Positions 10,701 through 60,163 of a stretch of DNA of 64,000 bases are shown piece after piece. The stretch spans positions 15,472,073-15,536,072 of the forward strand of contig JABAKD010000027.1 of NCBI GenBank assembly GCA_012845835.1, given 5' to 3'. Every line of letters starts with the position of its first letter. The stretch's first letter is position 1. Source of the stretch: Undaria pinnatifida. Lineage: Eukaryota; Sar; Phaeophyceae; Laminariales; Alariaceae. Position numbers and translations under genes: made by a program. Below the pieces are notes generated by a model that made no database searches, was not told the DNA's origin, and saw nothing but the letters and a program-made list of their open reading frames with translations.

Positions 10701-13700
10701 TGGGAGTTAAGACGTTTCGGCTCGACTTTTAAACATAATATGTACTCGTATGTCATGTTTGTGCTAAAAATGGTGCAGCAGGACACAACTTTCCGGCGTA
10801 AGAAAGTATGTTTCGTGTAGATATGTTTCTCCCCTTTCTTTTCGTTTCGTTTATTCTGTTTCGTTTTGCTTGTTTCGTTTTATTCCGCCTCATTCGGTTT
10901 TGTTTCGTTCCGTTTCGTTTTGTGCCGTTTCGTTTCGCTCCGTTCCGTTTCATGTGCTTCGTTTCATGTTTGTGTATATGGTTGTTTTACTTCCCCACCG
11001 CAGGAGGCCAGAGGAAGAGGTGCTCGGGCTGCTGGAGCTAATGCGCGGGGAGGGGCTCTTGCCGGACAGCTACACGTATGTGGGTGTGATCAAAGCGTTG
11101 GTAGGTAGGGACCGGTGCGAGCGAGGGAGGGAGCTGCTGGAGGACGCCAAGACCCACCTAGAAGGAGAGGCTTTGTCCGCTGTGTACGGCGCCGTTATCT
11201 CCGGCTGCAGCCCACTCGCCAGGTAGGGATAGGCCAGGGCTATGGTTTCCAGCAGTAGGAGAAAATCCTGTGTCAGGGTTAGGGTTATAGGGGTAAGGTT
11301 ACGAGAGCTAGGGTTAGGGATGGAGGTAGAGTTGGGGTTTCAAGAAGTAGGGTAACTTTTTACGGGGTCAGGGTGAGAGTCGGGTTACATTGTCATCGAA
11401 GTGCTGGTAGATAAGGACCGGTGCGAGCGAGGGAGAGAGTTGCTGGAGGACGCCAAGACGCACCTGAAAGGAGAAGATTGGTCCGCCGTGTACGGCGCCG
11501 TCATCTCCGCCTGTAGTCCGCTCGCCAGTTAGGGTTAGGCTTAGAGTTCAAACAAAAAGTAACCCTCCGTCGGATGAGTAGCTCAAGCCCACCACACTTC
11601 CACGTACACATGTGTCGTGTCAATTTAAGGCACTACCGTGGCAACGGCAGCGCAAGTTGCCTCGACCCCCGGCTGCCGTGAGCTGCGGACGCATGGCTAG
11701 GTCGACCCGCTCTGATCTCAGGCTCGATTGGTTTGCCAGTTGCTGCTGCTGCTGCTCTCGGTTTCGAGGTGGTGATGTACACACCTATCCCCTTGCTTTG
11801 CTTGCGCGAAACCGCCTTTGACTTACTCGGTTGCTTGCATGATACCTATGCCGACTTGCCGCCTTGCTGTTGACGTGACATGCCTTGCCTCTGTTGATGT
11901 GGCGTGCCTTGCCGCGCACTCCAACCCAAAGGTGGGAAGAGGCGACGGAGCTGTTCGAGGAGATGCGAGCAGCAGGCTTGCCAAGAGACGAGTATACCTA
12001 CTGCGCGGTCTTAAACGTGAGAGCCAGCCTGCGAGCCAACAGCAAGGATACTATCATAGGAAACGGGTATTTTGGAGCCGCGTCAGATATGTAGGCCTTA
12101 ATCGTTGAAGTACAGCGAAACAAGCCCAGCTCTAATTCCGAGTATTTTATCGCCGAAAAACATGGGTGCCAGTCTAAGAGGGTTTCACATAGTGTAGGGG
12201 GGCGGCGAGTCAAAAGGATCAACGACGGTTCACTATTAGTGGAATATTTCGTAAAGTTGGCTCGGATATGTCAGCTGTGAGTTTTAGATCAATTTAAGGG
12301 TCGATACTCATCTTTGCAAGCTGCGTGATACTCCGGTCGCGCGTTTGGTCAGCAGAACGCGCCAAGGCTTCATGTGGCCTACGTGGCCTTAGTATACTAG
12401 CAGGTATTTTAAGCGTTGAAGGGATGCCATAGTAAGAGAGCGGTGTCTTTGGGCGAGATAATACCTCTTGTGGCTTTAGTATTCTAGCTTTAGGGTAGGG
12501 GGGCGGTCCGTCAAGGGGTCGAACCGCGGCGTCACAGTATCGTTGACTGGCAGAGCCGTCTTTTTGGGCGGGTCAAGCTCTCTTTTGGCCTTGCTATACT
12601 AGTTTTTGTTCAGGGGGGCGGTGAGTCAAACAGTCAAACCGCGGTCTCCTAGCATCGATTTGGCAGCAAAGCGGTCTTTTTAGTGGCCACGAAAAGGCCT
12701 CTGTTGTGTTCAATATAATAGTTTTTAGGCAGTCAGTCAAGGGGAGCAAACGGCTGTCTTCCAGTAAGGTAAGAAACAAACGAAGCAAAGCATGGTCTTA
12801 TTCAAAATTCGTGCGGAAATTCCTCCCCTCTTGTTTGTTTTTCGTTTTGGCTTGGCGGGGAGCGTGGTGTGGGTTTTATCTTTTATGTCGCGTACCCTTG
12901 CTATTGCCTGTCATCAGCTCTGTCATACCGCGATTGGCCTTGACCTTTGCATTAACTCCGCGAAAAAATAAAAATGGTTGCGTCGTTCCCATCCCGACGC
13001 GCTCCGTCCCGGCATTGTAAAGATTCGAGGGTCTATGGTCTCAAGACTATAGCTATGCATGAAAGGAGTAGCTCCCCCCTCCCCCCTTACCCTACATCCC
13101 TCATTCCCCTAATGACCTCCTTTTCACCCAGATATAGCAACAAGGACATGACGAGTGTGGTATTACCAAGCGTTTTTTTTTCTCACGGTGTCAGCGCACC
13201 CTATAAGTAGTATCCTTCACCTCGCGTGTCGAGCGACTCGTTCCGTTGAAGTTTGGGTACTCCATCTATGATAGTCCTACCCCAGCGACCCGGGTTGCTT
13301 TATGGCCGACGCCGTCATCGTAACTTGTTTTTCTACGCTTTTCCCGTCCGAATTCCGAAGGAGGTTTCAAGGCTTTGCACAAACCACGAACAACTGAAGT
13401 AGACCGACTGCATCCTCCCGCCGCCTTGGCATTCCTCATCGCACGGTATGCAAAGAAAAGGGACTATAGAAAACGCCGTCAACCTTTAGGGCGAAATGAG
13501 GCAAAGCGGTGTGACACCACACCTTGACTGTAGCCCCCCCCCTCCAACCCCCCCCTTGCAAGGGGGACGATGGTAAGACGACGTTAACTTTCTGGGCGAA
13601 ACGAAGGAAGACAATATCGCACCAAACCGTAAACACCTTCAACAGATTTGAACGTACCCCCCCCCCCCCCCCCCCTCCTAACCCCCCCTCGCAAGGTATG

Positions 13701-16700
13701 CAAAGAAGCGGGACGATGGGAAGACGCGGTGAACTATCTGGGCGAAATGAAAGCGGACGGTGTTGCACCAAACCTTGTCGCGTACAACACGGCCATCGGA
13801 GCCTGTGCCGTCTCCGGAAGGCCTTCAAAGCCGTGGAGCCACGGGGCGACGTCGGGTTCCTCCTCTAAGTCGGCGAAGCAGAGAATGCTCACGTCCACTC
13901 AGATGGAGGCGGTAAGGATCGGGGATGTGGCGTTGGGGCTGATGGACGAGATGGACGAGGAGGGGATTGTGCCCGATGTCATCACCTACGGGTGAGGAGA
14001 GAAACGTTTACTATTTTGGTGGTTGTTGGTTGTTTGGTTGTTGGTTGGTTGGTTGGTTGGTTGGTTGATTGGTTGGTTGGTTAGTTGGCTGATTGGCATG
14101 ATTGGTTGGTTGGTTGGTTGATTGGCCTGATTGGTAGTAATTGGTTGGTTGGTTGGTTGGTTGGTTGGTTGGTTGATTGGCATGATTGGTTAGTGGTTGG
14201 TTGGTTGGTTGGTTGGTTGATTGGCCTGATTGGTTGGACGAAGGAAGTTGATCGGAGGGGTGGCGTTGCGACTATTGGACGAGATGGGTGAGGAGAGGGT
14301 GGAGCTTGAGGTCAGTACCTACGGGTGAGAAACGTTAATGGTCGGCTGTTTGATTATTTGTTTGATCGGTTAATTTGTTGTTTTGGCTAGTTGGTTGGTG
14401 TTGTTCGTTGGTTTGCTTGGTTGGGGCTGATGGACGAGATAGGCGAGGAGTGGGTGGAGCCTGACGTTATCGCGTACGGGTGAAGAGAGGCAGTTTTTTG
14501 CTTTGTTGTGGGGGTTGGTTTGTTTCTCCCTTTCTAGGCGTTGGGCCTGATATGACAGCTGAAGCCTGAATGGGAAGTGTTATAGCGGCACGCTGCGTGT
14601 TACACGCTCTCACACATCGAACAGATCACGATCTAGATCATGTAGATCATATAGATCGCCTAATCCGATATGCTGTGCAGGATCTGTGTAGTACAGGTCC
14701 AACCCGGGAAACGTGTGCTAGATCATTCACAGCTTACGGCTCACACCCGGCAACAGGATCTATAAGCCATGCATATCGTATAGACGAAGGACCTGTCTGC
14801 CCTGGAAGGTATATACCTGGTATCATGTACAGATCATCTAGAGGGATCTGATCTGTCCGACTTGTGCACGTTTCGCTCAGTCGTTGTCACCTTTTTTTGG
14901 TCAATCCGTGTGGCGCCAGCTCGCTGATGTCGGCATTGAGTCCTCGGGGGAAAGCGGGCGCCGACCTCGTGCTGGAGTTATTCGATGCTCTGCTGGAGAA
15001 GAAGATCAAGCCCAACACCATCACGTACGTCTCCGTCATACGCGCCTGGGGCGACAAGGGCGCTTGGCAGCAGGCTGAAAAGGTGTTTATTAGCTCCTTT
15101 GGGACTTGAGACGCTATAAGGCTACGGTAGGGACGCACCCCACATTTAGCAGGCACCTCGCTGGAGAAGCTCCGTGTCTAACCCTAAAAGCTGATTTTGG
15201 AGAAAAAATATATTTTTTCTTGTTTTTGTTTTTATCGTCACTTTTACTCTCCAGCTTAACTCGTAAGAGCTTACACCCTCAGCGACCCTCTGGACAAGCC
15301 GTGGTCACAGGTGTCTTCCCTTCTCCCCCTCCCCCGGTCCGGTACTTGCCTTCGTTTTTATCGCGCATAGGGTTCGGCATTCCCACTTCACCTTTTTTTT
15401 TGCTCGTCGATTTGCATCGAATTGTGCTAACTCAGAGCCACCGTACCGGATGAACAACCCCATGGCATAGGCATACAACGAAACATGGTGAATCTAATAA
15501 TTAAAATCCGGACGATTTTAGTTAAGAAGCCCCGCCATTCAAAAAACCAAATCAGCCCAAAATTGCTACCTCTATAGTAGCATGCGTCTTCGATCGGTGA
15601 CAAGTTTCGATGAAAGCCAACGAATTCGAGCATCAACCACACGAAACAGCCCGGAATACCTACGTGTCTTGACGATTTACTGTTGACTTACTGTAGATGG
15701 TGACCGAGACGAGCGACGTCCACGGTCTGGAGCCGCAACGCTTACGTTGACCACTGAATACTACGTAACTGCTGCCTAGTGCCAACTAACTGTCTATTGC
15801 CTACTGACTTACTGACTCTGCATTGTAGATGCTGGTCGAGATGAGCGAGGTCCACGGTCTGCAGTCGATCCGCGTGTATTGAATGGCGATGATGATGATG
15901 TTCTCACATTTAGCTAATTATTCATATGAAACCTCGCCCGTAGTCACAAAAAAAGACGAATAAAGTGCCCCGATGAAAGAAGAAACAACTAGTAGGCGGA
16001 ACCATAGAGAAACTACGATACACGCAAGAACCTATGCATTCCTCTTTTTTACCAACAATCGTGTTCGGTTGTAGTTTCTATACGTTTGCCCATAACTCAA
16101 AATATTTCGTGCGCCGCAGTACCAGTACGCAAAGGAACGATACTGACTACGGCCTACCTACATAACGTACTGCAAATGCTGACCGAAACGAGCGAGGTCC
16201 ATGGTGTGAAGCTCGATCCGCTTCTGTTGATTTTTGCCTACGGCCAATTGCCTACGGCATACTGCCTACGACCCACGGCCTATTGCCTACTGCGTACGAA
16301 CTATTGCCTACTGCCTACGAGCTACGCCTTACTGCGTACTGAGATACTGTAGATGCTCGTACTGAGATACTGTAGATGCTGACCGACATGAGCGAGGTCA
16401 ATCGTGCGTTGTCGAGCCATTTCTGTTCTCTACTACATATTGCATACGGCCTACTGCCTACTGTCTACTGCCTAGTGCCTACTGCCTACGACTAACGGCC
16501 TACTACCAATTGAGATACTGTAGTTGCTGTCCGAGATGAGCGAGGTCGAACCGCTTGTGACGATAATGATGTTTTCACATTTGCTCAGTTCCTTGATTCT
16601 GGCCTGTGGTCACATAAAAGGCTTGAATGCATCCCGATTGGAGAAAACATAACCACTACTGACTACGAGTTACTGTCTAATGCCCACTGCCTTCTGCCTA

Positions 16701-19700
16701 CTGCCTACTGGCCTACTGTAGATGCTGACGGAGATGAGCGAGGTCCACGGTCTGGAGTCGAACCGGTTCTGCTTTTCGGCGGTGATCAAAGCTCTAGCGA
16801 AAGGGGGGCAATGGAAACGCGCGCTGGAGAAGATAGACGAGATGCTGGCGCTCGGACTGTCTCCCGACCCAGTGGTCTACACGGCCGCCATAGGGGCGTG
16901 CGAACGGGTGAGCACGGGAGAATGTGTGGTATCCCGGTATCCCGTTTATGTGTTTGGAAGGCGTTACTGACATGTGCTACGATAGAGGCGTTAGGGCAGG
17001 AGATCTTTGTATGTTATCCCCGTTATACCACCTGTTTTTCATGGACGCTTTACTGACTGTGCGGCTGCCACAGGGGCGTGCGAACGGGTGAGGACAAGAT
17101 TCAGTTATGGTATCCCCTACGCGTGCTATGGTGGGGATGTCCCTAAGTATTTTTTCGAGCTCCTCGCTTAAGCGGCTATATACCACACCCAAATAATGAC
17201 CTTGAGAAAAATGGTACGCTTAACCTGATGAACGATTCCGCGACGAAGGTATGGTAAGAAGCGTGTCTTACCCCCTTCGGGCCTTCAGAGAAAAAAAATC
17301 GACCAAATAAGTTGACGATTTACAGCGTCGATCGCACCTAGCAAAGCGGGTTGCCGGCTTAGGAGTTGGTTAGATTGCGTTCCGAAAAAAGCACATCCCC
17401 AAGGAGGTGTACGGCAAGCGCGCAAGCACGATACGACCCATGCTGTGCTGCGTCGCGCTCACACTAGCTCGCACATCTTGATCGTTTTGATGGCGTTTTT
17501 TGGGGTGCCCGAAGGGGGTTGAGTAGTGCCTCGCTTGAGGAACCCCGTCAGTCGGGAATATTTGGAGTCATCCCTCTGAATATTTGGAGTCATCCCTCTA
17601 TAGCGCGGTAGGGGTTTGCATTCTTTGGGCCAATCGTTTTTTTCTGACGTTCTGACGTTCTGATTGGTTGAGCTCCTCAAGTGGGTAACTATCGGTTGAT
17701 TATAGTTTCACAAGCATTCTTGTTTTGTGGACTATTAATAGCACATAGAAACGTTGGTCGGATTGTGCGAACGAACGTCATCGAGGTCATGTTTCGGGTG
17801 ATGGTAATGATGATGATGATGATGATGATGATGGTGTTGAGTTCCTCGTGTTAGGCGCGGAGAAATTTCTTAGAATATGATAAACCCGTGGGATGACTCT
17901 TGGGCCCAAAAGTGCTGCGCACCTCTGTCGCAGCGCTTCTATCGTAGTACACGCCCCGCCATATGCCCTTTGTTTGGGAGTAGGGCGGCGTTACTGCCTC
18001 CACGACCGCCTTAGGGGCTTGCGAACGAGTGAGGACCAGAAAAATTGTGATGGTATTCCCCATATCCCTTGTATGTAGGGAAGGCGTTACTGCCTAGACG
18101 GCCACTATAGGACAACAGGTTATGATAGCATTCTTCCCGTATTCCCTCTCTTTGTACGGAAGGCGCTACTGCTTACACTGCCACTATCGGACAAAGCATT
18201 ACTATGGTGTCTGCGTATGCCCTCTATGTGTTAGGAAGGCGTTACTGCCTACACGCGCCGCCATAGGACAGAATATCATTATGGTATCCAGGCATCCCCT
18301 ATATTTGTTAGAACCGCGTTACTGCCTGCACGGCCGCCGTAGGGGCGTGCAAACGGGTGAAGACAGGATGTTTCGTTGTATCCCCGTATTCCTTTCATGT
18401 GCAAAGTTTTTGTCCGGAGGCGTGCCTGTCTTGGCTAACCCCACCCCCCCCCTCCTTGCCCTCCCGCATCGCTTTCGCGCGTCGCTTTGCTCGGCTTGGC
18501 TTGGCTTGGTTTGGCGTTTGTCGTTTGGCGTGGCGTGGCGTGGCTTGGCGTGGCATGGCTTGGCGTGGCATGGCTTGGCATTGGCGTGGCTTGGCTGGGC
18601 TCGGCTTGACTTGGCTTGGTTCTTGGCTTGGCGTTTGGCGTGGCGTGGCGTGGCTTTGCCTGGCTTGGCATTGGCTTGGCTTGGCTTTGCTGGGCTTGGC
18701 TTGGCTTGGCTTGGCTTGGCTTGGCTTGGCTTGGCTTGGCTTGGCTTGGCTGGCTTGGCTTGGCTTGGCTTGGCTTGGCTTGGCTTGGCTTGACAGCATG
18801 GGCAGTGGGAGGAGGCTTTAGATACTCTGAGCAAGCTCATCGCCCAGAAGCCGCCGAAGCACGCCCTGACGTGGGGATACAATGCCGCCGTCAGTGCTCT
18901 GGGCAAGGCACGACAGCTGGATGGGGCGAGGGATCTGGTGGCGACCATGAAGGCTAGCGGTATGTGATGATGTTGATGGTGTTGGTGTTGGCGTTGGTGC
19001 TGGTTGGTGTTGTTGGCGTTGTTGATGGTGATAGCAGCGGCGGCGGTGGTGACGGTGTTGGCAGTGATGTTAGTGGTGGAGTTGGTGTTGGCATTGGTGG
19101 TGTTGGTGGTGGTGGTGCTTGTGGGGGCGGTAGTGTTGGTGCTGGTGTGGGCGGTGGTGTTGACGGTGGTGCTGGTGGTGGTGTTGGTGGTGTTGATCGT
19201 GTCGGTGGTGTCGTTGGCGTTAGTGGTTGTGGTGGCGGTGGTGTTGGTGTTGGTGCTGATGGTGGTTGGATGGTAATGGTGATGGTGTTGGTAATGATCG
19301 AGGCAGTGTGTTGGTGTTGATGCAGACGGTGCTGATGTTTTTGGTGGTGGTGATGGTGTTGGTGTTGGTATTGGTGTTGGTGTTGAGGGAGGCGGTGGTG
19401 GTTTTGGTGTTAGTGTTGGTGGTATCGGTGTTGATATTGGTGAAGTTTCGTTGCTATTGGTGATGGTGTTGATGTTGGTGGTGTAGTGTCGTCGTCGGTG
19501 GTGGTATTGGCGTTGGTGTTGGTGGTGGCATCGGTCTTGTTGTCGATGTGTTATTTGTTTGCTGTTGTCCGTTAATACTGCTTTGGTCAACAGTGCGGTA
19601 GGGCGGGTGCGGTGATATTGATGGTCTGACGGGGTGTGTTGGGTTGTGCTGGGTGCGGTGGGGTACGGTTGGGTTGGGTTGGGTTGCGTTTTGTAGGTGT

Positions 19701-28700: not shown

Positions 28701-31700
28701 ACTAGTCTATATTTCGTAAATACATTTATAAATAGGTTGGTGCTTGCACGAGAGCAGCCCAAATTTCCGATTTAGACCGGGTTTTGAGCCGTCTTCGTAT
28801 TATCTCGAGCTGAGGTCCACTTCTCGGCGCGTTGTATTCTGGACGTGCCTCACCTTGCTCGACTCTCCCGACCCTGCCGGGATCGCTGAGCTACAGCCGC
28901 AACCGTCCTCTGGACTCTTGTCACGATGTAGTTGCAAATCTAGCAGCAAACATGCAGCAGGTCGTGAATGTGAAGGTTGGATCGCTGCGTAGCTCAGTAG
29001 TCAGTAGCTCATTTTAGGTTTGAATATTTCGCACAACCATGACAAATACAGTAGAAAGCGGGCAAAACAGGGCTTCTTTACGCCCAGGACGAAGTAGGTA
29101 GTTGGTGTTGACTGTAGATGGCGAGAGAGTGTCAACGATGGAAGGGTGTGAAGCAACGAGTATCAAGGCATTACTCGTCGGTGTCAGAGCGGTCGCGGGC
29201 CGTGGGTGCTGTACCATGAAACATTAAACAAGGGAACGACAACCAGGCAGCAGCATCCACTACTGCACTGCTGTGATGGTGGCCACACACCGTGCATACA
29301 CGCTGGAATCTGGAATCATGTTCACAGCAGCAGACTGGAAGTGTGCCCTGACGACCATACAATATGAACAATGTTATCGCGCGCGGGGGTCCTACAACAG
29401 GTGAACAAATCTGGCATGAAATCATAAACGAGCACAATTTGTGGCATTTTTATTAAACCTGCGAGCATCATTGTGAAAAACGGCATAAAACGGGCAGAAT
29501 AAGCTTGAATTTTGCCGGCATAATAAATTAAAGCCTGTATGCGGTCGGGGGTTCGAGTCCCGGCGGAGCGCTTCCGGTTTTTTTTCATGTACCGTTTGTT
29601 TTTCATCTCTTTTTTTGATTAGGCACCGCGTGTGGTTCCCGACAGGGTACGTGGACCTGATATATTAATATTACACTGCTGTGCGCTGCTGTACGACGTA
29701 CGAGTATGTGCTTGTATCTACCCGTTATGTATGTATTTTTGCTGCTGCTTTTGTGTGTTGCCATCCTGCTGTTGCTGCACCTGCAGTGCTGCTGCTTATT
29801 GGGCTGCTGTTCACCTTTGTTGCTTTGCCCACCCAAAACAAAGTTGGGCCACACTAGGCCGAAATACAGATATGGAACCACCTCTACCACTGAAATACTA
29901 AATACATGGAGGATCATGTTGGTCCTTGCACGAGAGCAGCCGAAGGGCCCGATTTAGACCAGGTTTCGATCGGTCTTCAAGATAACTCGCGCTGAGGTCC
30001 ACTTCTCGGCGCGCTGATTACTGGACGTTCCTCACCTTGCTCGCCCCTCCCTGCCCTGCAAGTAGCGGCTTGGACTGTGCTCGCGTCGTATCCCTGCGGC
30101 GGGTTCTATTTTCGTTATTTGGCAATTTTGTCCCTAGCGTCTATTCGAACGTACTTATGTAGGAACATGTGTATACCAGGTAGTAGATAAGACAATTGGG
30201 CTGCTGCCTCATAGAACAAGTCGTCCGCTGTTCGAGATGATATATAGTGTTTTTTTTGTGTGAGTTCCCTTTTTTTTGTTCCAGAGTAAAAATATGCACG
30301 ATCATGATTGAGATGTCGTCTGTGCAATCGAGGAGTAGGCTTTTTATTTTTGTTAGTCGCCGCGTGTGTAGACAGCAACGGGTGGTTAGAACGTAGTTTG
30401 CACTCCTTAGAGAATATGAGGTCGAAGGTTCGATTCCCAGAATGCTTCCAGTTTTCTGTTTTTGTATACCGTGTTTTTTTTAATGTATATATATATTTTC
30501 TGGGCTCCGTGTGTGAGTGGTTTCACACACAGGGTACCTGGAACTGGCATATTAATATATACGGGTATACAAGTTCTCCCTTCGGAGGTGAAATAAAGGG
30601 AGGGGATGCTATTAATAGGCAGAGTAAAAAGTGAGCGTAAAACCCAAAAGCACATAACAACGTAGAATGGAACGAACGGTAGCAAGCACGCAAAATCAGG
30701 ATATACATGTTCTCCCTTCGGAGGTGAAATAAAAGGAGGGGATGCTAGGCAGAGAGTGAAAAGTGAGCGTAGAACCCAAAATCACATAACGTAGAATGGA
30801 ACGAACGGTAACAAGCACGCGAAATCAGACCACAAGAGAGTGACGCAAGAGAAAGAGAGCGAAAGCATATATATGAGACAAATTACATGCAGTACTTAAC
30901 TACTTGTATCAATATAGTAGTAGTAGTGTAGTAGTGTAGTAGTAGTGTAGTAGTAGTAGTAGCAGTAGTAGTAGTAGTGGTATATGGTAGAAAAGCACAA
31001 CGCACGAAGCAGCAGCCATAGCCGCACACTATAATGAGCAGTATACAGCGTATCTTACATTACAACAGTGGGGGACTCCCAATAGTGCCGGTTGAATATA
31101 TAGTGCCACTATACTGTTTTTGCAAAGGTAGCCAAAGACTGGAGCTCCTAATAAAAAAAAAGTGTATGGCCGCTCTACCAGCACGACATCATGCACGAGA
31201 TATGATTCGCCACCGTGGGAGCAACTCTGACGGCATCTCAGGCACATACGTCCAAAACTTTTAAAAAACCATCGTAATGTAGGGCACATGTTCGTCATCT
31301 CGCGACGAATCATGACAGTATGCGCATGTAGCAGTGCATTGTCAGTAGCCAACAATGGGATGCAGCGTTCGGAACTCTCCTCCGAATGCTCTTTGAAACA
31401 TTGTATTACTATGTTGTGACCGTGCAAAGACAAACATACCGACCTCGAACGAGTTCAGACGAGATTCAGTACGTGAACGCATAAATACGGACACCATGGA
31501 ACAGACTTATCAATTTACGGGAGTAGATTGATATCTTGGTAACGATCCAGCAAGCTGTGGAGCACCTGTTCCATTTTACGCTACCCAGCTTACCTGATAC
31601 CCGTGACGGAAAATCGATGTCCTCCAGCTGTAGAAGTATTCCTTATCTTGCTCACCCCATTCACAAGTCCCGCATACGCACTGCCATACAAGTATCAATT

Positions 31701-34700
31701 TCAACAAGCCAATCCAGCTCGACAGCCCCCGCCATTTTCCAACGTTTATTCGCGTTTGTCCTGTTGTTGAATATTCTCCAGCCACCACCCCTCACAAAAA
31801 AATACTGGAATCGGATACTGTTGTTCGTCTCTCCTGGCGCCTGCATGCTCCCACTGGTATTCTCCTGACCCGAGTGTCGCCGAATAAGAATCCTCCTTCA
31901 TCGAAAATGTCGGGGTACCTGCCGTCCTCGGTATAGCCTCGTCAGTCCGACGCAAATAGAAAACGGCGCTCTTGGTTGCTGGGTTGCTGTGAGCAGCACA
32001 GCGGTAGCGCCAATGAGTTCACATGCAGCCGCATCTATAAGCAACCTAAACAGCAATCCAGAAGGCAGTCGGCGGCCCATGCAAGTGTCCTCAACTTTCA
32101 ACATGGTGTTGAGGTCCTCGCCGGGTTCATCAACTACCATTTCTGTCACTGCTCGCTCGACTTTTTCATTTTGATCAACTGCCATGCTACGGACGGTAGG
32201 CGCAGCTTTCTTGTCGCTTTTCTGTTGTTCTTCGACCACCTCAGGCACCTCCTCCGAGGATGTGGCGGAACGACCTTCCGCTGTGGAATAATTTTAAGTC
32301 ATGTCGCCTGCCACGGCCATCGCTCACTCGTGCGCAGTTGGTTCTGCGACCGCCGCAGTATTAACGCTTGCCGTCGATGACGTCAACAACAGAGTGGAGG
32401 CGTTAACCATTGCTTTCTTCACAGCAGCACATTTCGCCCGTGAAACAGGGATATCCCTAGACCGGGCTCGGGTCAGGAGATACTGCACCTTGGGCAGACA
32501 TCTCGCGCATTCCAAGAGAACATTCATCAGGATTGCTGACAGTACGCTTCTCAGGCCCGTACACCCTACGACTTGCATCAGCAATAGCACCAGTTGGCTT
32601 AGCCTCACCACGGTGCTCTGCCTTGCGTCCCACAAATTACTCCATTTCGAGAGGGCACGGGTCCGCTAGCTGTAACAAGCTGTGAAACCCATTGGATCCA
32701 CGGTACTTGCAACGCGGCGACTGAGGTATGTCGAAACGCACCTTGGTTGTGCCGTTCCGTTGTCCTTACGAGTATCTATAACGCATGAAGCACCCAAAAG
32801 AAAAAAAACGAGAATCTATATCTAACAAGATTAAATGAAACATTAAAAAATATATACCGGTTCGAGAACAAATGGAGGCATAAAAAATGTGTATTTCCGG
32901 TACGCGGAACTGTAAAATTTCGCAGGACTGTCATGTGTCATTACGCCGCGTTCGTGAGATGCATCAAATACTTCAAACACGCTGAAAAAAAGAAAGCACA
33001 GCATGCCCCCTGAGACACCCCACGAGCACCCCGCGAGCACGCCAGAGGCTGCCCCCGGCAGGGTCGGGAGGGTCGAGTAAGGTGAGGCACGTCCAGCCAT
33101 CAGCACTGCAATAGGCTTGTTCACGAAAACGAAAACCATGGTGTATCGTTCGTATCAGTATTGCTCCGCCTTCGCACGATTAAAACTGATACCCATTCCG
33201 CGAGACTATCATACAGTTCGTTGTTCGACTGTCGGATACTGACGCGTAGAATACTGTTCTTAAGCGAACCTAACGCATGAAACATGCAAGAGGAAAAAAC
33301 AAGAATTAACGACGCTTAGACACTGTTTTCAAGGCTGTCTAGCGCATGAAACGCCCAAGAGAGAAAAAAACAACGCACGAAACACCCTAGAGAAAAAACG
33401 ATAGTCTAGCGATGAGAAGAAATCGAACATTGAAAAAATATATTTCTGGTTCGAGAACAAATCGAACATTAAAAATATAAATTTATAGTATTTCCGGTTC
33501 GCAAGATGCATGAAATGCTCGAAAAACAGCTTGAAAAATAGCGAGCGCACCATGCCCCGTGGTGGAAGGGGCCGATGCCGCCCGGAACTCATCACCAAGA
33601 TGAGGTACGCCATATAGTCGACACTATCCTTTGTGGTGGGCGTGCGAATGCACGACTCGCTCGTCTGCTATCTCCTTCACACTTCCTCGAGTTTTATTAA
33701 ATTATTTACAATACGCCATCTGTGAGTTCGACGAGTTGAGTGGTCGATAGTCATATTTGCAAGCTGCATGATACTTCGGTCGCGCGTTTGTTCAGATTCG
33801 AATGGTTACGCTTTTAACAGAGTATCTACATGTGTTGAAGCTCATTGGTTGTTAAGGTTCCGCCGCATCGTCTCAGGTTGCACCGCATATTTATATGATA
33901 ACTGTTAAAGGCCCCGAACTCCGGGACTACTGTTGACCCCTCTGCGGATGGTGGCATTACTCAATTCTCATCGTTTTTCAACGTTTTCCAACGTTTTCGA
34001 ACGTAGTCGTTGGATGCATCATCGTTTTTGCCGCGCTTTTTAAATTTCACAGTTTTTCCGGCGCGTTATTAAGAGTTAATCGTCCCCACCCCCCCCCCAC
34101 CCCCCGGCCCCCGGTTCACCGTACCGACAACGCCCTCTCGTGTCATGGATTTTAATTCCCAGGTCGTGTTCGGTGGCGCCAGACCAAGCCTTCTTCCAGC
34201 CGGCGGCTTTGGCACTTGCCGCAGGGGGAGACTGGGAAGGGGCCGTGAAGGTTATCGAGGTGAGGGGGAACTTGACCCCTTTTCGACTGTCGGTAGGGCT
34301 TTGAGTGGGCTAACTATAAATCGCCGAGTAGTTATTAGTTGGGTAGGAATGTAGCCGACTAGCTACTAGTTGGGTGGCGAAATGAACCAACTAGCTGAGT
34401 TCGCGACTGTAGCGCTTCACCGGTGGACGAGACCCCCCCGCGTTTTGTAGACATAGTAGAAGGGAGGCAGAAGGCAGATCTTCTGAGCACCGTGAGAAGA
34501 GCTAGCTATGGCGCAATAGCCACGGTACGTTGGCAAACTCCAAACGACAGCCTTTGGAAGCACTTTTTCAAACGCCGAAAATCTAAGGTCACAAACGTGG
34601 ACAAATCCGCACGTTCTTGTGGTATTTGACGTTCCAAAAGGTGGTCAAAGGGTCGGCCTATCGCCCACCTTCTACTATGTCGACGAAGCGGAGGGGTCCC

Positions 34701-36912
34701 GTCAGCCCGTGCTGTAGCAGGGGGGGACTGAACTGATTTTGCAAATGTAACGCTTGTAGCAGGGGGGGGCTGGGAATGGCTGCCAAGGTTATGAACCCCC
34801 GTTGGGTGACAGATGTTCACGCGTCCGATAGATCGCCGATCCCCACTTGATGGTCTAGATCTTTCAGGGAGATCTGTATTGTCGATGATAGCTCATATTG
34901 CCGGGTGGGAGCTGTACGATCTGCATAATCTAGCACATGTTTCTGGTGTTGGATCTGTACTCTACATACATAGATCTTGCTCAACATAAATCTCATAGCG
35001 GCAGCTGTAGGATCTATTGTAGATTATCTAGATGGTCTATATAGATAATCTAAACTACCTAGATTATCTAGATTATCTAGACTATCTAAATCGTGGTCTG
35101 TCAAAGGTGTGCATGGAGATGTTAGGAGACAGCACGTTCAACCCTTGACGAGACATCATTTCCCCCGTAATTTTCCTTGACTTGACACCAAACTGCCAGG
35201 TTTAGCATGAAAAACTCCATCCTACAGCCTTGCAGTGCACGTTTTCCCTTAAGGGGCCATGTCTCCTTATACGTTTGCTTTGGCCAGGGCTGTGAGTTGT
35301 CTGACTATACTCATGATAAGTCGCCGACTGCGTAGTTATTAGTTGGCTAGGTATGCTATACGTTACGGTTGTAATATCATATATAGCGGTTGTAATATAG
35401 TACATTACGGTTATATTATAGTACATTAGTACAGTTGGTTGCGCGCGGAAAATTGCTTACTTGTAATTCTGCGGTTTTGTGTCTGACTGCCCCGTTTGTG
35501 GTACGCCACGAGAAAAAATGGAGACAGCAGTATTCGTAAGAACGAAGCAAAATTTCACGGTACATAGAGTAGTAGACCCTCCCCGCTTCAAACTGCCGCG
35601 TCTTTCGTTTCGTTTGCTTGCTCGCTCGCTTTCTCGCTCGCTCGCCGTGAGGGTCGGTACGTGTCTGCTATTTTCGACCCCGGCACGTTTTGTTTTTTTA
35701 CAAGCGAATGCGACCTTCTAATGTTTCAGGGCTTTTCACGGCTCATGACCCGGCCCGTGGGTCGGGTCAGAAGGATTTCCATATTGTCCCGGGTGGAGTC
35801 GGGTCTGGTCAGGAGGTGTTCGAAATGTCACGGGTCGGTTCGGGTCGGGTCGGGTCGGGTCGGGTCGAGTCGGGTCGGGTCGGGCCAGGAGGTTTTCAAG
35901 TATTACACGTCGGGCCGGGTCACCCTGACCCGATCCGACCCGCGAGAAAATTCGACCCGTAAAAAGCCTTGATATTTTTTACCACGTAAAAAAACGGGGA
36001 CCCCTTTTTCGAGTAGCCAGAAGCGTAGGCCGACCAAAAACCAACGCACTCCGTTCACGACAGTTACATTTATTTATTTTTTGTCCTCCGGCGGATGGAG
36101 AAATGTAAAGCTTTTGCTCACCGCAATTGCACGTATTTTCATGTATCATAGTGTCAATTTAACTCAATTGTATTCGCAATCCAGTGCTAGCTGGCGTATC
36201 CTTCGGTTCCCGCGGTATCGACTTCGCGAGCTGTCTCTGCCGGTGGTCGTACGATAGTTACACATGTCTACTACGTTGCTGCGCGAGTTTTTTGCGACAA
36301 CTATACGATAGTATGCCAAATCCTCACAACGGCATCTTATGGCCAGTGTTTTTTTTAATCCTACTGTAAATTAAAGCTCGAGGTCTTGCTGGGATTGGAT
36401 TAAAGTGCACCCAACGACTTCGCACCGCTTTCGGCGATCGCCCGCGACGTTTTTTTCATCGTTTTTGTTGTTCACACATTAACTCATCATCGCCGTAATA
36501 AAGTCCGTGCTCGCAATACAGGTTCTAATCACTCTGAGGTGGACGAAATTATCAGGGGAACACACACACATTCCAAACGTGTTATCATGGCTGAAGCAAA
36601 GTCGTACATAAGCCAAGGAACAAAGCGTGAAATGAGAAGTCAGCGTAAGTAAGTATCAATCCCATACCGATGCAAACCTTTTTTAAGGATGTGTATAACC
36701 CACAACGTAACCCCGCAACAAACACCCCTCCTCTGGGTTTCCAGGACGGAGCCGCAGTGGGACTGCCGCCGCAGGACGACGCCTGCGAACTAGTACGGGA
36801 AGCGGCTAAAGCTAAGGGACAGCTTGGGATCGCCAACATTCGCCTAGCCGGAATTCAGTTGGCACCGGCACCGACGGATGAGGACATTGCGATAGCTGGC
36901 ATGGGTGCGTGA
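7267..36912 (+). CDS. P-class pentatricopeptide-repeat (PPR) protein, 17 exons
   Basis: Exons are 7267-7770, 9376-9572, 10560-10664, 11004-11222, 11932-12016, 13696-13991, 14920-15082, 16722-16907, 18797-18959, 20421-20587, 21003-21191, 23278-23421, 24565-24678, 25899-26090, 28263-28384, 34163-34259 and 36745-36912. All phases agree and yield 1036 residues. About 18 PPR motifs run from residue ~110 to ~990, most exactly 35 residues long with the usual TYN-start, W/xEA helix and GxxPD end. A polyserine stretch precedes them, and the last ~55 residues are not PPR. There is no DYW, E or SMR domain, so this is P-class. Family knowledge: such proteins bind single-stranded organellar RNA; targeting is not provable here. 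Low-complexity insertions interrupt two repeats (exons 6 and 14). The start codon and final exon are the least certain parts. Introns run from 339 to 5778 nt. Confidence 0.87.
8008..8182 (+). mobile_element. SINE-like family 1, 3' part in intron 1
   Basis: gctgaaccctatgcgcgata, gggaagacacctgtgaccac, ggcttgtccagaaggtctct and a gatgaaaaaat tail match the family. The head is missing. Confidence 0.8.
9090..9340 (+). repeat. ACA/ACC-rich simple repeat in intron 1
   Basis: Degenerate aac, cac and acc triplets up to the exon 2 acceptor region. ORFs through it are Asn/Thr artefacts. Confidence 0.92.
9376..9572 (+). CDS. PPR gene exon 2
   Basis: The acceptor is tctcaacag. The peptide continues exon 1 in phase 0 (EMK then [20 protein letters not shown]) and contains [14 protein letters not shown] and [12 protein letters not shown], both PPR helices. 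The donor is gagag before gtgtgg, phase 2. Confidence 0.85.
9580..9960 (+). repeat. GCTGTGGTGTTA-rich repeat in intron 2
   Basis: gtgctactgctgtag and ttgctgtggtgttac units, G/T-rich on the sense strand. Confidence 0.85.
10560..10664 (+). CDS. PPR gene exon 3
   Basis: The acceptor is tcggccag. The split codon gives Arg and leads into [19 protein letters not shown] and [14 protein letters not shown], a full PPR helix pair. The donor is tccag before gttcgt, phase 2; an upstream gcgag before gtccag is also in phase. The next exon fits the 10664 choice. Confidence 0.82.
10838..10972 (+). repeat. TTTCG pentamer repeat in intron 3
   Basis: ttcgtttcgtt units lead into the exon 4 acceptor and may act as its pyrimidine-rich tract. 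Confidence 0.93.
11004..11222 (+). CDS. PPR gene exon 4
   Basis: The acceptor is ccccaccgcag. The exon encodes [30 protein letters not shown], an Arg/Glu-rich helix and [12 protein letters not shown]. It ends ccag before gtaggg, phase 2. A decayed second copy of its 3' two thirds lies at 11396-11533. Confidence 0.85.
11396..11533 (+). repeat. Decayed copy of exon 4, 3' part
   Basis: The segment repeats the last ~137 nt of exon 4 at high identity (gaccggtgcgagcgaggga, ctggaggacgccaagac, gtgtacggcgccgt). The reading frame is still open through it, but the donor has changed from ccag-gtaggg to ccag-ttaggg, and I see no good acceptor, so it should not be spliced in. Telomere-like ttaggg runs occur at 11274-11330 and directly after the copy. 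Confidence 0.85.
11932..12016 (+). CDS. PPR gene exon 5
   Basis: The acceptor is caacccaaag. With the split Arg codon it gives [17 protein letters not shown] and [10 protein letters not shown], an ideal PPR junction of one repeat's helix A end, helix B and the next helix A. The donor is ttaaac before gtgaga, phase 0. Confidence 0.85.
13443..13632 (+). repeat. Two decayed copies of exon 6, 5' part
   Basis: 13443-13532 repeats the start of exon 6 (ggtatgcaaagaa, then degenerate gaaaacgccgtcaac and ggcgaaatga). 13551-13632 repeats it again from gcaagg with gggacgatgg, tttctgggcgaaac and atcgcaccaaacc. Each copy is preceded by a C-rich pyrimidine tract like that of the real acceptor. Stops and frameshifts break both. 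Confidence 0.85.
13696..13991 (+). CDS. PPR gene exon 6
   Basis: The acceptor is ctcgcaag behind a run of about 20 C. The exon encodes [19 protein letters not shown] and [19 protein letters not shown]. About 35 Ser/Lys-rich residues follow that interrupt the repeat, then [15 protein letters not shown] and PDVITYG. The donor is tacgg before gtgagg, phase 2. Two 5'-part copies precede it and two 3'-part copies follow. Confidence 0.87.
14033..14236 (+). repeat. GGTT-rich simple repeat in intron 6
   Basis: Degenerate tandem ggtt and gattgg units fill about 200 nt between exon 6 and the first copy of its 3' end. Confidence 0.95.
14244..14479 (+). repeat. Two copies of exon 6, 3' part
   Basis: 14244-14324 and about 14417-14479 each repeat the end of exon 6 up to the tacgg-gtga donor. 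The first reads [12 protein letters not shown] then STYG; the second reads [10 protein letters not shown] then VIAYG. Both frames are open and both donors intact. In the first copy an upstream aag acceptor would define an 81-nt, phase-2/phase-2 exon that could be included without frameshift. Confidence 0.85.
14611..14869 (+). mobile_element. GATCTA-rich inverted-repeat element, copy A
   Basis: The ends are inverted: cacacatcgaacagatcac at left, and at right the complement of gtgcacaagtcggacagatc. Inside are repeated gatctagatcat blocks and ggatctgt and tgtgctagatc motifs shared with copies at 34817-35112 and 41371-41622. There is no coding capacity, so it is a MITE-type element. A perfect target-site duplication was not seen. 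Confidence 0.7.
14920..15082 (+). CDS. PPR gene exon 7
   Basis: The acceptor is tggcgccag. It completes ITYG and continues [21 protein letters not shown], then [21 protein letters not shown] and GAWQQAEK. The donor is gaaaag before gtgttt, phase 0. Confidence 0.85.
15222..15436 (-). mobile_element. SINE-like family 1, partial copy
   Basis: Minus-strand copy with the conserved core ggacaagccgtggtcacag, ttatcgcgcatagggttcgg and gctcgtcgat. The tRNA-like head is missing. It is in the reverse orientation to the PPR transcript, inside intron 7. Confidence 0.75.
15691..16562 (+). repeat. Array of five decayed copies of exon 8, 5' edge
   Basis: Copies at about 15691-15748, 15822-15882, 16170-16235, 16370-16430 and 16519-16560 repeat the acceptor and first 40-50 nt of exon 8 (tgtagatgctgaccgaga, tgagcgaggtccacgg). 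Between them are ctactgcctac-type short repeats. All copies diverge or stop before the middle of exon 8; four keep or nearly keep the tag acceptor. Confidence 0.9.
16722..16907 (+). CDS. PPR gene exon 8
   Basis: The acceptor is ggcctactgtag. It begins [14 protein letters not shown] and continues [32 protein letters not shown] and [11 protein letters not shown]. The donor is cgaacgg before gtgagc, phase 0. This is the only complete version among many partial copies. Confidence 0.9.
17061..18362 (+). repeat. Array of about six copies of exon 8, 3' edge
   Basis: Copies near 17066-17102, 17996-18035, 18087-18116, 18165-18195, 18243-18275 and 18322-18362 repeat the end of exon 8 and the start of intron 8 (acggccgccatag, ggggcgtgcgaacgggtga). 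The last four form units of about 78 nt that also include intronic ggtatcccc and ggaaggcgttactgcc. Some keep an intact donor. Confidence 0.9.
17808..17833 (+). repeat. ATG/GAT trinucleotide microsatellite
   Basis: About nine gat units in intron 8. A 22-nt direct repeat (gaatatttggagtcatccct) lies nearby at 17557-17600. Confidence 0.9.
18487..18795 (+). repeat. TTGGC pentamer satellite
   Basis: Tandem ttggc and tggcg units run up to the acceptor ttgacag of exon 9, so the satellite forms the 3' end of intron 8 where the pyrimidine tract would be. Long ORFs in either direction across it are artefacts of the repeat. Confidence 0.95.
18797..18959 (+). CDS. PPR gene exon 9
   Basis: After ttgacag the phase-0 frame reads [20 protein letters not shown], then [20 protein letters not shown] and DLVATMKAS, two PPR helix pairs. 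The donor is gctagcg before gtatgt, phase 1. No methionine-started ORF covers it. Confidence 0.88.
18964..19560 (+). repeat. GGTGTT minisatellite
   Basis: About 600 nt of degenerate gttggt and ggtgtt units in intron 9, followed to about 19690 by gggttgggttgggt-type sequence. Confidence 0.95.
19955..20050 (+). repeat. Dispersed repeat family D, copy
   Basis: The block cagctgtgaggtcgag, gtcgaaagtcatctt, gtgatacttcgatcgcg recurs at about 8285-8410, 12250-12355, 33720-33800 and 62907-63015. The class is unknown. Confidence 0.65.
20070..20291 (-). mobile_element. hAT-like MITE with GGGTC repeats, copy 1
   Basis: The ends are cagggctgctcaagggtc and the complement of cagggcttttaacgggtc. The flanks are ctattttc and ctgttttc, a 7/8 match to an 8-bp target-site duplication, which with CAGGG ends is the hAT signature. 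The interior is repeated gacccgacccg. A related element in the other orientation lies at 35727-35971. It is non-coding and sits in intron 9. Confidence 0.75.
20421..20587 (+). CDS. PPR gene exon 10
   Basis: The acceptor is gctctcccag. Phase 1 completes Gly, then [34 protein letters not shown] and [15 protein letters not shown]. The donor is gaacgg before gtgaga, phase 0. Confidence 0.9.
20728..20788 (+). repeat. Decayed copy of exon 10, 3' part
   Basis: ggcgcgaaccgcgtggtg, ttcgttgcttcgctt and gcgaaggctgaac match the last ~55 nt of exon 10. The donor is lost. Purine-rich ggga tracts surround it (20586-20720 and 20800-20880). Confidence 0.9.
21003..21191 (+). CDS. PPR gene exon 11
   Basis: The acceptor is cccgctgcag. 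The frame reads [51 protein letters not shown] and CTAMIK. The donor is attaag before gtgggt, phase 0. Confidence 0.92.
21192..21500 (+). repeat. GGGA purine-strand simple repeat
   Basis: About 300 nt of gggaggga on the sense strand at the start of intron 11. Long reverse-strand ORFs here are proline/serine artefacts. Confidence 0.95.
21909..22698 (+). mobile_element. hAT-like element, longer relative
   Basis: The left end caaggctgtgagtcgg, with the following tttcacgactaataactag, matches the MITE at 23879. The right end is the complement of tacggctgtgagttgg. Its target-site duplication is not clear, so the limits are tentative. No transposase domain is recognisable in the 790 bp. Confidence 0.5.
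22961..23038 (+). repeat. Short direct repeat, two units
   Basis: gcggctcttaaaccgagtcc and gcgcatgatacgg occur twice in succession, about 33 nt apart. Confidence 0.9.
23278..23421 (+). CDS. PPR gene exon 12
   Basis: The acceptor is cttaacgtag. Phase 0 continues MIK to [19 protein letters not shown], then [19 protein letters not shown] and PDKVFE. The donor is ttcgag before gtgagt, a consensus donor. Confidence 0.9.
23457..23670 (+). repeat. GTTGAT-rich simple repeat in intron 12
   Basis: Degenerate gttgatgg and gttgatga units. The 256-codon reverse ORF across it is His/Pro/Thr-rich repeat translation. Confidence 0.95.
23879..24221 (+). mobile_element. hAT-like MITE with perfect 8-bp target-site duplication
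   Basis: The termini are tagagctgcgagtcgg and, inverted, tagaactgtgagccgg. They are flanked by identical gtgctacc at 23871-23878 and 24222-24229. The 343-bp element has no transposase and is a non-autonomous hAT type inserted in intron 12. Confidence 0.85.
24565..24678 (+). CDS. PPR gene exon 13
   Basis: The acceptor is gcgcctgcag after a long C run. The frame reads [21 protein letters not shown], with [17 protein letters not shown] at the end. The donor is ctggag before gtgggg, phase 0. Confidence 0.87.
24690..24950 (+). repeat. TGTTTGTT-rich simple repeat in intron 13
   Basis: G/T-rich degenerate repeat with tgtgtttgttg units; no coding. Confidence 0.9.
24953..24988 (+). repeat. Copy of exon 13, 3' edge
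   Basis: gctgacgtgttgctggag followed by cggggagactgctgctt matches the exon 13/intron 13 junction at 24664-24697, with the donor gt changed to gc. Confidence 0.85.
25111..25301 (+). mobile_element. Tc1/mariner-pogo-like MITE
   Basis: The left end gggatctcccaataaggcgg is inverted at the right end (complement of ggggtcccccagtaaggcgg). TA lies at 25109-25110 and 25302-25303. The internal ggcggtat and gcggtatct blocks are typical of these short elements. It lies in intron 13. Confidence 0.7.
25899..26090 (+). CDS. PPR gene exon 14 (GC donor)
   Basis: The acceptor is tttcctag. The frame reads [20 protein letters not shown], then an Asp/Gly-rich insertion ([15 protein letters not shown]), then [12 protein letters not shown]. 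The best junction is gcggag before gcaagt, a GC-AG intron with an otherwise ideal donor. It keeps phase 0 and joins DVFAE to ARTHYPG of exon 15. A GT donor at 25980 would remove the helix. Confidence 0.78.
26272..26345 (+). repeat. Decayed copy of exon 14, 3' part
   Basis: ggcggaaatggcg, ttgcggcgagcgctagacgt and gcgaaggcaa repeat the exon 14 end, and ttttctccag downstream also recurs. The donor position reads gcaatt. Confidence 0.9.
26419..26570 (+). repeat. Minisatellite of about 26 nt
   Basis: Around six units of the form tggcggccatctgtaac with variations, in intron 14. Confidence 0.85.
26585..26925 (+). mobile_element. SINE-like family 1, near-complete copy
   Basis: The element contains gtctcaccgagtgcatactc, agggactttttcatg, cgcgagagcatgagttggc and gctgaaccccatgcgcgat, then ttgtccagagggcgactgag and an A-rich tail. 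It is the same order as copies at 48050-48362 and 54226-54535. The box B region is degenerate. Confidence 0.8.
27136..27352 (-). mobile_element. SINE-like family 1, partial copy
   Basis: Minus-strand copy with ccctcggcgatcttgtggac and tcatttttatcgcgcacagg, lacking the head. It faces the copy at 26585 within the same intron, giving an inverted pair about 250 nt apart. Confidence 0.8.
28263..28384 (+). CDS. PPR gene exon 15
   Basis: The acceptor is cgtgtggcag. Phase 0 gives [26 protein letters not shown] and AARNLIAEM. The donor is gatgag before gtgaaa, phase 2. Confidence 0.87.
28738..28890 (+). repeat. Dispersed repeat with copies at 29925 and 33040
   Basis: cttgcacgagagcagcc, cgatttagacc, ctgaggtccacttctcggcg and tgcctcaccttgctcg recur at about 29925-30060 on the same strand. 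The last part recurs inverted at about 33040-33095. The class is unknown. Confidence 0.8.
29440..29680 (+). mobile_element. SINE-like family 2, copy 1
   Basis: A tRNA-like T-arm (cggggg-ttcgagt-cccgg) is followed by cgcttcc, T-rich tracts, and ctgatatattaatatt. The copy at 30360-30570 has the same order. No matching 5' acceptor strand exists, so it is not a tRNA gene. Confidence 0.6.
30360..30570 (+). mobile_element. SINE-like family 2, copy 2
   Basis: A possible box A (tggttagaacg) precedes box B ggttcgattcc. The 3' part (aatgcttccagtttt, acagggtacctgg, catattaatata) matches the copy at 29440-29680. Confidence 0.6.
30564..30828 (+). repeat. Tandem duplication of about 135 bp
   Basis: gttctcccttcggaggtgaa, gtgaaaagtgagcgta-like, and gtagaatggaacgaacggta blocks occur at 30570-30700 and again at 30707-30828, over 90% alike by eye. 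Confidence 0.9.
30912..30985 (+). repeat. TAG trinucleotide microsatellite
   Basis: tagtag and tagtgtag units in intron 15. Confidence 0.95.
31029..31433 (-). other. Unassigned minus-strand ORF
   Basis: A 134-codon open frame begins at a TTG and includes a Cys-rich piece ([16 protein letters not shown]). I do not recognise a family. It lies within the largest PPR intron (intron 15) and could be remnant transposon coding. Confidence 0.25.
31898..32282 (-). other. Unassigned minus-strand exon-like ORF
   Basis: An acceptor-like attattccacag on the minus strand precedes an open frame with an acidic/basic start ([19 protein letters not shown]), [11 protein letters not shown] and [20 protein letters not shown], ending in TGA. 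Composition resembles real protein, but no family is evident. An adjacent minus ORF at 32324-32635 does not join in phase. Confidence 0.3.
33553..33606 (+). repeat. Copy of exon 15, 3' part, 5.2 kb downstream
   Basis: tggaaggggccgatgccgcc, cggaactcatcacc and aagatgag repeat the end of exon 15, with an intact gt donor (gatgag before gtacgc). The frame of the copied peptide ([15 protein letters not shown]) is broken. Confidence 0.85.
34163..34259 (+). CDS. PPR gene exon 16
   Basis: The acceptor is tttaattcccag. The split codon gives Arg, then [20 protein letters not shown] and [12 protein letters not shown]. The donor is atcgag before gtgagg, phase 0. Confidence 0.85.
34697..34800 (+). repeat. 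Two decayed copies of exon 16, 3' edge
   Basis: gtagcagggggggactg near 34712 and gtagcagggggggg, ctgggaatggctgcc, aaggttatgaa near 34757 match gccgcagggggagactggg and the end of exon 16. Neither keeps a donor. Confidence 0.75.
34817..35112 (-). mobile_element. GATCTA-rich inverted-repeat element, copy B
   Basis: The outer ends are cacgcgtccgatagatc and, inverted, gcacacctttgacagacc. The inside has repeated gattatctagat units and tgtgctagat/ggatctgta blocks. It is the same family as 14611 and 41371. Confidence 0.65.
35285..35480 (+). mobile_element. Fragment of hAT-like element
   Basis: cagggctgtgagttgtctga and attagttggctaggtatg are shared with the complement of 38490-38634 and with 44330-44437. 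Only one terminus is seen. Confidence 0.5.
35727..35971 (+). mobile_element. hAT-like MITE with GGGTC repeats, copy 2
   Basis: cagggcttttcacgg at left and inverted caaggctttttacggg at right frame a core of about ten cgggt units. It is the same family as 20070-20291, in opposite orientation. The target-site duplication is weak (5/8). Confidence 0.65.
36745..36912 (+). CDS. PPR gene exon 17 (probable last exon)
   Basis: The acceptor is tctgggtttccag. Phase 0 reads [20 protein letters not shown], then [12 protein letters not shown] and [11 protein letters not shown], ending in TGA. The end is not PPR-like. A gtgcgt eight bases before the TGA (36905) could act as a donor to a further small exon. 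Confidence 0.75.
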   Translation, partial: DGAAVGLPPQDDACELVREAAKAKGQLGIANIRLAGIQLAPAPTDEDIAIAGMGA

Positions 36913-37005
36913 AAGGTGTCACTGCCATCAACACCCCCCACCGCCAACATCCTCACCAACACCACCGCCACCACCACTGCCACCACCGAATATATGTAAT
37001 ATGTC

Positions 37006-37133
37006 ATTTTAGTGGTTTGACGGACGGCAAAGTTCGAAGAAAATGGCTCTCCCCCAAAGATAAGGGACGCCTCGAGGTCGCCAACATACGCCTAGTAGAT
37101 GAGGGCGCGGCGATTCCTGGCGTGGACACGTGA
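37006..37133 (+). repeat. Divergent copy of exon 17 with stop
   Basis: It encodes LEVANIRLVDEGAAIPGVDT before TGA, aligned with the exon 17 end, and even the downstream cactgccac-aac sequence recurs. A ccaccaccat stretch separates the two. It may be part of the 3' UTR or simply duplicated DNA. Confidence 0.85.
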
Positions 37134-37302
37134 CCGACACCACTGCCACGAACATCACCACCACCATCAACACCACCACCACCACCACCACCATCAGACG
37201 CGTATTGTGATATGGGTGGCACAATTTGGCCAAAATAGTGCTGCCTGGCAGAGGTCGTCAACTGAGGAATTACTTCAAGTGCGCTGGAACATGGCATCCA
37301 GT

Positions 37303-37556: not shown

Positions 37557-37650
37557 TCGAATTAAGTGCGCACTTTTTTTCTACAAAAGGTCTGGTTTTG
37601 GGGGAGGTATAGAGCATGTCAAGTTAGGCAAAATATGGTGCGCAACCCTA

Positions 37651-37877
37651 CCGGGCCACGGGTAACCTTCGCCACGCTGGGGTTTGCTGGATCGCTGTCA
37701 CCGTGCTGGGGTTTTTGCTGGGTCACCACCACCACGGGACCCTGTTGGGTTCATTGCCGCATTGACCGGGCCACGGGTAACCTTCGCCACGCTGGGGTTT
37801 GCTGGGCCGCTGTCACCGTGCTGGGGTTTTTGCTGAGTCACCACCACCACGGGACCCTGTTGGGTTCATTGCCGCTT
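37651..37877 (+). repeat. Tandem duplication of about 113 bp
   Basis: accgggccacgggtaacctt through gggttcattgccgc occurs twice, nearly identical. Confidence 0.95.
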
Positions 37878-48362: not shown

Positions 48363-48369
48363 GCTAGTA

Positions 48370-60156: not shown

Positions 60157-60163
60157 TTAATGT

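Follow-up and report, generated by a model that had tools for sequence, protein, structure and literature searches.

How do the introns of an apparently working gene come to hold broken pieces of that gene's own exons? This question is raised by a stretch of 64,000 nucleotides (nt) from the brown alga Undaria pinnatifida (NCBI GenBank assembly GCA_012845835.1, contig JABAKD010000027.1, forward-strand positions 15,472,073 to 15,536,072), which we analysed as a whole and refer to as the window. On its plus strand, at 7267-36912, lies a gene of the PPR family with 17 exons (E1 to E17) and 1054 codons, in a single uninterrupted frame. A sequence-only reading of the window had claimed that nine of the 17 exons have partial duplicates in the adjoining introns, and our alignments bear this out, with 19 copies in adjoining sequence on 11 exon sides. 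The best-supported reading of these copies is that tandem duplication occurred repeatedly, each time with an exonic and an intronic breakpoint and with the inner splice site kept in use, and we give it a probability of about 0.8.

To find the copies, both flanks of every exon were searched on both strands by alignment with that exon, against a background of shuffled flanks, giving 34 exon-sides on each of two strands. On the plus strand, 12 of the 34 exon-sides exceeded z 4.5. One of these, the downstream side of E1 (z 5.7), was rejected as CAG-rich simple sequence, for which masking lowered z to 1.2; the other 11 carry real copies and belong to nine exons (upstream of E6 and E8; downstream of E4, E6, E8, E10, E13, E14, E15, E16 and E17). 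On the minus strand, none of the 34 exon-sides reached z 3, the maximum being 2.8. Judged by exon letters alone, E13 was the weakest (z 4.7), rising to z 13.1 when 40 nt of intron were added, and with masking and a 1.5-kb limit E13, E15 and E16 dropped under z 7 through score, distance or masking. The copies themselves were collected by iterated alignment of a query consisting of the exon and 40 nt beyond it. This yielded 33 alignments, of which 19 were kept; among the 14 discarded, 12 (at E1, E9 and E11) were simple repeats and two (at E8) contained no exon letters.

All 19 copies are partial, lie on the same strand as the gene and are 74-91% identical to their parent exons. Every copy holds the exon end that faces it, that is, the exon start in upstream copies, which occur at two exons, and the exon end in downstream copies, which occur at all nine. 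In 17 of the 19 copies, homology runs on for 12 nt or more outside the exon (only 2 nt at E15 and none at E16), and 16 of the 18 copies of internal exons include at least 12 intronic nt. The copies therefore originated at the DNA level, and processed, RNA-derived copies are ruled out. Whole-exon copies and inverted copies were sought in the flanks and none comparable was found. In the rest of the window, with the other exons and tandem arrays masked, there was no comparable match (scores 13-23); outside the adjoining introns, 8 of 34 exon-strand pairs slightly beat the highest score from eight shuffles (chance would give about four such pairs), and the largest excess was that of the CAG-rich E1 (23.0 versus 17.5 in shuffles).

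The copies, all on the plus strand, are unevenly spread. E4 (11004-11222) has a single downstream copy at 11391-11540, which repeats 11085-11234 with 85% identity and in which the donor GT has become TT. E6 (13696-13991) has two on each side. Upstream, 13414-13526 derives from 13664-13777 (exon start plus 32 nt of intron; 74%; acceptor AG changed to CG) and 13534-13644 from 13667-13789 (exon start plus 29 nt of intron; 80%; AG retained); downstream, 14235-14350 and 14420-14520 derive from 13904-14027 and 13932-14031, respectively, and both retain the donor GT. E8 (16722-16907) is the richest, with five copies of the exon start upstream, at 15659-15743 (with 37 nt of intron), 15789-15893 (with 36 nt of intron), 16142-16226, 16331-16430 and 16477-16547 (24 exonic nt); the acceptor AG is retained in all of these except 16142-16226, where it is AA. 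Three copies of the E8 end lie downstream, each with its donor GT, one at 17062-17116 and two (17998-18068 and 18326-18395) inside a tandem array of intron 8 at 17980-18401, whose unit, with a period of about 76-95 bp, consists of the last 31 nt of E8 and about 60 nt of intron 8. The remaining six exons have one downstream copy each. That of E10 (20421-20587) lies at 20728-20888 and repeats the exon end and following intron (20533-20694) with 73% identity; that of E13 (24565-24678) lies at 24941-25020, derives from 24652-24718 and shows GC for the donor GT; that of E14 (25899-26090) lies at 26273-26375, is 82% identical to 26038-26141 and has a GC donor like its parent. The E15 (28263-28384) copy, at 33564-33606, is 91% identical to 28343-28386, lies 5.2 kb away and retains the donor GT. 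The E16 (34163-34259) copy, at 34753-34792, derives from 34215-34255 and has no recognisable donor. For the terminal exon E17 (36745-36912), the copy at 37056-37172 repeats the exon end, which holds the stop codon, and following sequence (36808-36949), and no donor is involved. Overall, the parental splice dinucleotide is retained in 13 of the 18 copies that could have one, with one further change from GT to GC. The polarity claimed at the outset, acceptor side upstream and exon end downstream, thus stands at E6 and E8 for the former and at all nine exons for the latter; the added claim that downstream copies carry the donor fails at E16 and E17. The GC donor of intron 14 (26091-26092) is mirrored by a GC in the decayed E14 copy (26327-26328).

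What process could have left such copies? Orientation and facing end agree at 11 of 11 sides, for which the probability is about 2e-7 if orientation and end are independently random, and this speaks strongly against the idea that exon pieces were inserted at random. The copies are also local, that of E15 being the least so. Upstream of E6, copy follows copy without foreign sequence, in contiguous units (13414-13526 and 13534-13644, then 13667 into the exon) at offsets of 133 and 250, and the intron 8 array likewise consists of contiguous repeats carrying the E8 end. The same is largely true of E10, whose copy accounts for 161 nt of the 195-nt interval from copy to copy, in part G-rich, and of E17. 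We propose that many small local tandem duplications, of about 80-300 bp, have churned the region. Whenever a duplicated unit lay across the edge of an exon, the copy still attached to the remaining exon would have stayed in use; the other copy, carrying acceptor and exon start if upstream or exon end and donor if downstream, would have turned intronic and drifted. Later duplication, simple-repeat growth and insertions would then have built the arrays at E6 and E8, separated the copies at E4 and E15 and lengthened the introns. Tandem duplication would on this account be the event at every site. By homology, the inner splice sites are those that yield the conserved protein, and they are probably the ones used in RNA; exon definition, in which the nearest sites pair, may be the reason that they win.

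Local duplication is also common away from the exons. Of 290 non-exonic tiles, 39 have a same-strand duplicate nearby, no more than 1.5 kb away (to the left of the gene 5 of 42, in introns 15 of 103 and to the right 19 of 145), a count from which exon-derived material was excluded, in which 19 low-complexity tiles were skipped and in which both partners could be counted, the tiles not being independent. Random sampling, in the same order of regions, gave 11, 24 (exon-derived copies included) and 10 samples with local duplicates out of 120 each. The exons therefore seem largely to be slow-decaying recorders of a duplication that is common throughout the window. In addition, because divergence between two intronic duplicates builds up at double the neutral rate, whereas an exon keeps the ancestral letters, copies at exon edges form a longer-lasting and directional record. 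In a comparable test (z of at least 7, 1.5-kb flanks, tandem arrays masked), 6 of the 17 exons pass, namely E4, E6, E8, E10, E14 and E17, an excess over the 290 tiles with an odds ratio of 3.5 (Fisher p 0.025), or p 0.077 against the intron tiles alone. When uniform tandem duplication was simulated with exon evolution slowed to 0.3 times the neutral rate, exon pairs were detectable to greater ages but fewer placements were allowed (273 versus 565), and integration of the simulation output gave an expected exon rate of about 0.7 times the tile rate. At an equal rate the exon excess has p 0.019, or p 0.07 if intron pairs are also deleted twice as fast. Being post hoc, in a window chosen for the pattern, this excess is suggestive. 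The process can be seen at work away from exons in young and clean tandem duplications at 37650-37880 (115 bp, 96.6%), 63247-63456 (about 105 bp, 94%) and 30563-30828 (136 bp, 86%).

Several points weigh against repeated tandem duplication as a complete account. No convincing tandem unit is present at E4 (spacing 306, with 150 aligned), E13 (spacing 289), E14 (235, with 103 aligned), E15 (5221) or E16 (538), and the tandem origin of these copies therefore rests on their polarity together with assumed later insertions or repeat growth. The polarity, for its part, is geometric, as any tandem duplication that straddles an exon edge in a gene that survives will leave it. Finally, the exons exceed the 0.7-fold expectation (binomial p 0.003), and uniform random duplication may not suffice. 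The proposal of the sequence-only reading is supported in part: it stays the best supported, and its complete unit is unseen at the five exons just named.

The incomplete units could instead be explained if the repair of breaks in introns had copied in pieces of nearby exons. Such templated insertion would suit the copies that are distant or without a full unit, as at E15, E4 and E16; however, it predicts both orientations and any part of an exon, where one orientation and the facing end were found throughout, and it gains nothing from the rest of the window, in which no comparable match occurs. We regard it as improbable. Misassembly is harder still to credit, and we think it barely conceivable: a 99% palindrome elsewhere in the window (56873-58384) could itself be an artefact of this kind, but the 9-26% divergence of the copies and their separate indels are hardly to be expected from false joins or uncollapsed haplotypes.

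A further question is whether the copies do anything, either as functional alternative exons or as selected, regulated decoy splice sites. With a splice-site matrix trained on the 16 true sites, few enough that its scores are rough, 9 GT donors and 14 AG acceptors in 26,481 nt of intron reach the median of the true sites. Copies of true sites provide two of these donors (14324 and 17087) and one of these acceptors (13563), and the copied E8 donor at 17087 (9.4) outscores the true one (7.6). Decoy splice sites, which the duplications had been said to supply, do exist, but only these three copies reach the median of true sites, so that few are strong. The retained dinucleotides and the high-scoring E8 donor copy would favour a function, as would the E4 copy, whose frame is open and whose 46 codons show 4 differences at position 1, 6 at position 2 and 10 at position 3. 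On the other hand, none of the copies comprises an entire exon with its two splice sites, and retention in 13 of 18 is, by our estimate, approximately what drift leaves at 20% divergence. Across the copies, differences from the exon number 56/358, 56/358 and 87/354 at codon positions 1, 2 and 3 (15.6, 15.6 and 24.6%), a bias too modest to argue for function; frame-breaking gaps occur in 9 of 19 copies and in-frame stops in 3 of 18. The modest third-position excess fits one drifting, neutral copy compared with one constrained exon. Selected function for the copies is thus very unlikely in our view, and mutually exclusive tandem exons are rejected because all 19 copies are partial, with the modest codon bias, gaps and stops just described.

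Most of the duplications are specific to this lineage. At residues that set the exon apart from the aligned relatives, summed over 18 copy rows, the copies match the exon 63 times, a relative 8 times and neither 17 times, sites being shared among copies of one exon. As the copies mostly share the derived residues of the exon, most of the duplications postdate the split from the aligned relatives. The range of identities, from 74 to 91%, suggests several duplication ages; along the E6 and E8 arrays, an inspection by eye for an age order with the outermost copy oldest revealed no clear trend.

Are exon edges, and chiefly donor sides, hot spots of tandem duplication? Copies occur at 8 of 16 donor sides and 2 of 16 acceptor sides (Fisher p 0.054); the 8:2 split has a binomial p of 0.11, and counting E17 (9:2) gives p 0.065, so that the donor-side bias, again post hoc, is suggestive. 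The first 150 nt of introns have a positive GC skew in 16 of 16 cases (two of them just 0.02), with a pooled value of +0.47, compared with +0.07 in the middle and -0.13 in the last 150 nt, and the share of tandem repeats is 0.316 at intron starts versus 0.096 in the middle. G-rich intron starts might lead through R-loops or replication stress to tandem duplication, in line with the excess of copies at exons over tiles. However, the numbers are small, the window was picked because the pattern was noticed, and the excess has p 0.077 against intron tiles alone and the 8:2 split, taken by itself, p 0.11. Moreover, tandem arrays lie within 100 nt of the donor in 7 of 16 introns, which is not significant against a rotation expectation of 4.7 (p 0.15). 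Survival could likewise favour donor-side copies, since a copied acceptor, lying upstream, is transcribed first and may compete better, whereas a copied donor is transcribed later. The hot-spot explanation is therefore one that we hold as a doubtful possibility.

The gene in which all this has happened is intact. Its remaining exons are E1 (7267-7770), E2 (9376-9572), E3 (10506-10664), E5 (11932-12016), E7 (14920-15082), E9 (18797-18959), E11 (21003-21191) and E12 (23278-23421), and the copies sit outside the exons, which already encode the conserved protein. The exon model, with a putative start codon, started from open frames and splice sites and was then revised against relatives, by which the starts of E3, E7, E11 and E14 were moved upstream. 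It has 15 GT donors, one GC donor and 16 AG acceptors, intron 14 being GC-AG and the other 15 of 16 GT-AG. Membership of the PPR family is indicated by PF13041 (PPR_2; E 1.5e-99, 10 stretches), with tandem PPR motifs above the Pfam cut-off, which PF01535, PF13812, PF12854 and PF17177 likewise exceed. The best relatives of known source are the Ectocarpus proteins P0002 and P0003, at about 55% identity; the initial protein model was 55-58% identical to P0001, P0002 and P0003, with P0001 (EukProt) at 57%. P0001 and P0002 share 70% identity, and the lineage of the Undaria gene therefore seems to lie outside that pair. Among 10 long open reading frames elsewhere in the window, no Pfam family exceeded its cut-off, the one weak match being to MtN3_slv (E 0.0099, sub-cut-off); an Rfam scan of the window gave nothing at the gathering score, a tRNA search found none, and a search of viral contigs for related DNA loci by alignment pattern gave 35 matches, none of them a relative.

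The window holds further repeats. A near-perfect palindrome at 56809-58447, with arms of 752 nt that are 99% complementary and 8 nt apart and outer arms of 63 nt (97%), may be a foldback element or else an artefact of assembly. A dispersed family in both orientations, 71-91% identical, occurs at 8013-8176, 15223-15434, 26610-26921, 27159-27353, 44656-44737, 48069-48370 and 54290-54490, and is possibly a transposable element. An element rich in GGGTC/GACCC repeats lies in intron 9 (20108-20291) and, in opposite orientation, in intron 16 (35727-35940), with 72-84% identity. There are also a 342-bp G tract with interrupting A (59218-59559) and direct copies of about 770 bp, 79% identical and including an (AAC)n run, at 47041-47810 and 59535-60225.

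Where does the gene stand among known systems? Where whole exons are duplicated in tandem and spliced in a mutually exclusive manner, the copies are complete, conserved exons that have both splice sites. The PPR gene resembles this in having exon-like copies in adjoining introns and differs in that its copies are partial and decayed. With ordinary intronic tandem duplications and minisatellites it shares the mutational input seen in the non-exonic tiles; the difference is that each pair includes an exon, by which the ancestral sequence is preserved and the pair polarised. In a potato gene, tandem duplication across an intron-exon boundary created a new intron (PMC4974935), and the copies there too include the acceptor and polypyrimidine tract. 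The potato duplication, confined to one site in a single gene, added a new intron and a piece of exon, whereas in the PPR gene the outer copies are apparently silent within existing introns, at nine exons and at several ages. Tandem duplication has more generally been considered a source of introns, in a review (PMC3443670) and a survey (PMC2891723). The model likewise has a local duplication that includes exon sequence supply splice sites; it requires duplication within an exon and yields a new intron, whereas in the PPR gene existing splice sites are straddled and existing introns enlarged. Among the matches listed in our literature search, judged by title and the start of the abstract and with subscription journals mostly outside its coverage, no paper described copies of this kind at many exons of a single gene. 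The mutation is thus ordinary and the process known; the density, and the apparently silent outcome within existing introns, are unusual.

In summary, the exon-edge copies of this gene provide an unusually clear record of intron growth. With 11 polarised sides in one gene, a local rate of duplication can be estimated and the question of hot spots at exon edges or donors can be addressed, and the gene also offers a setting in which to explore how the spliceosome passes over several near copies of its sites. More tentatively, and with more doubt than confidence, we suggest that introns in this lineage may grow mainly by recurrent tandem duplication at exon edges, with the donor side, where intron starts are rich in G, preferred, and with stacked decoys tolerated since just the innermost pair of sites would be used. 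If this is true, exon edges would seed the growth of introns.

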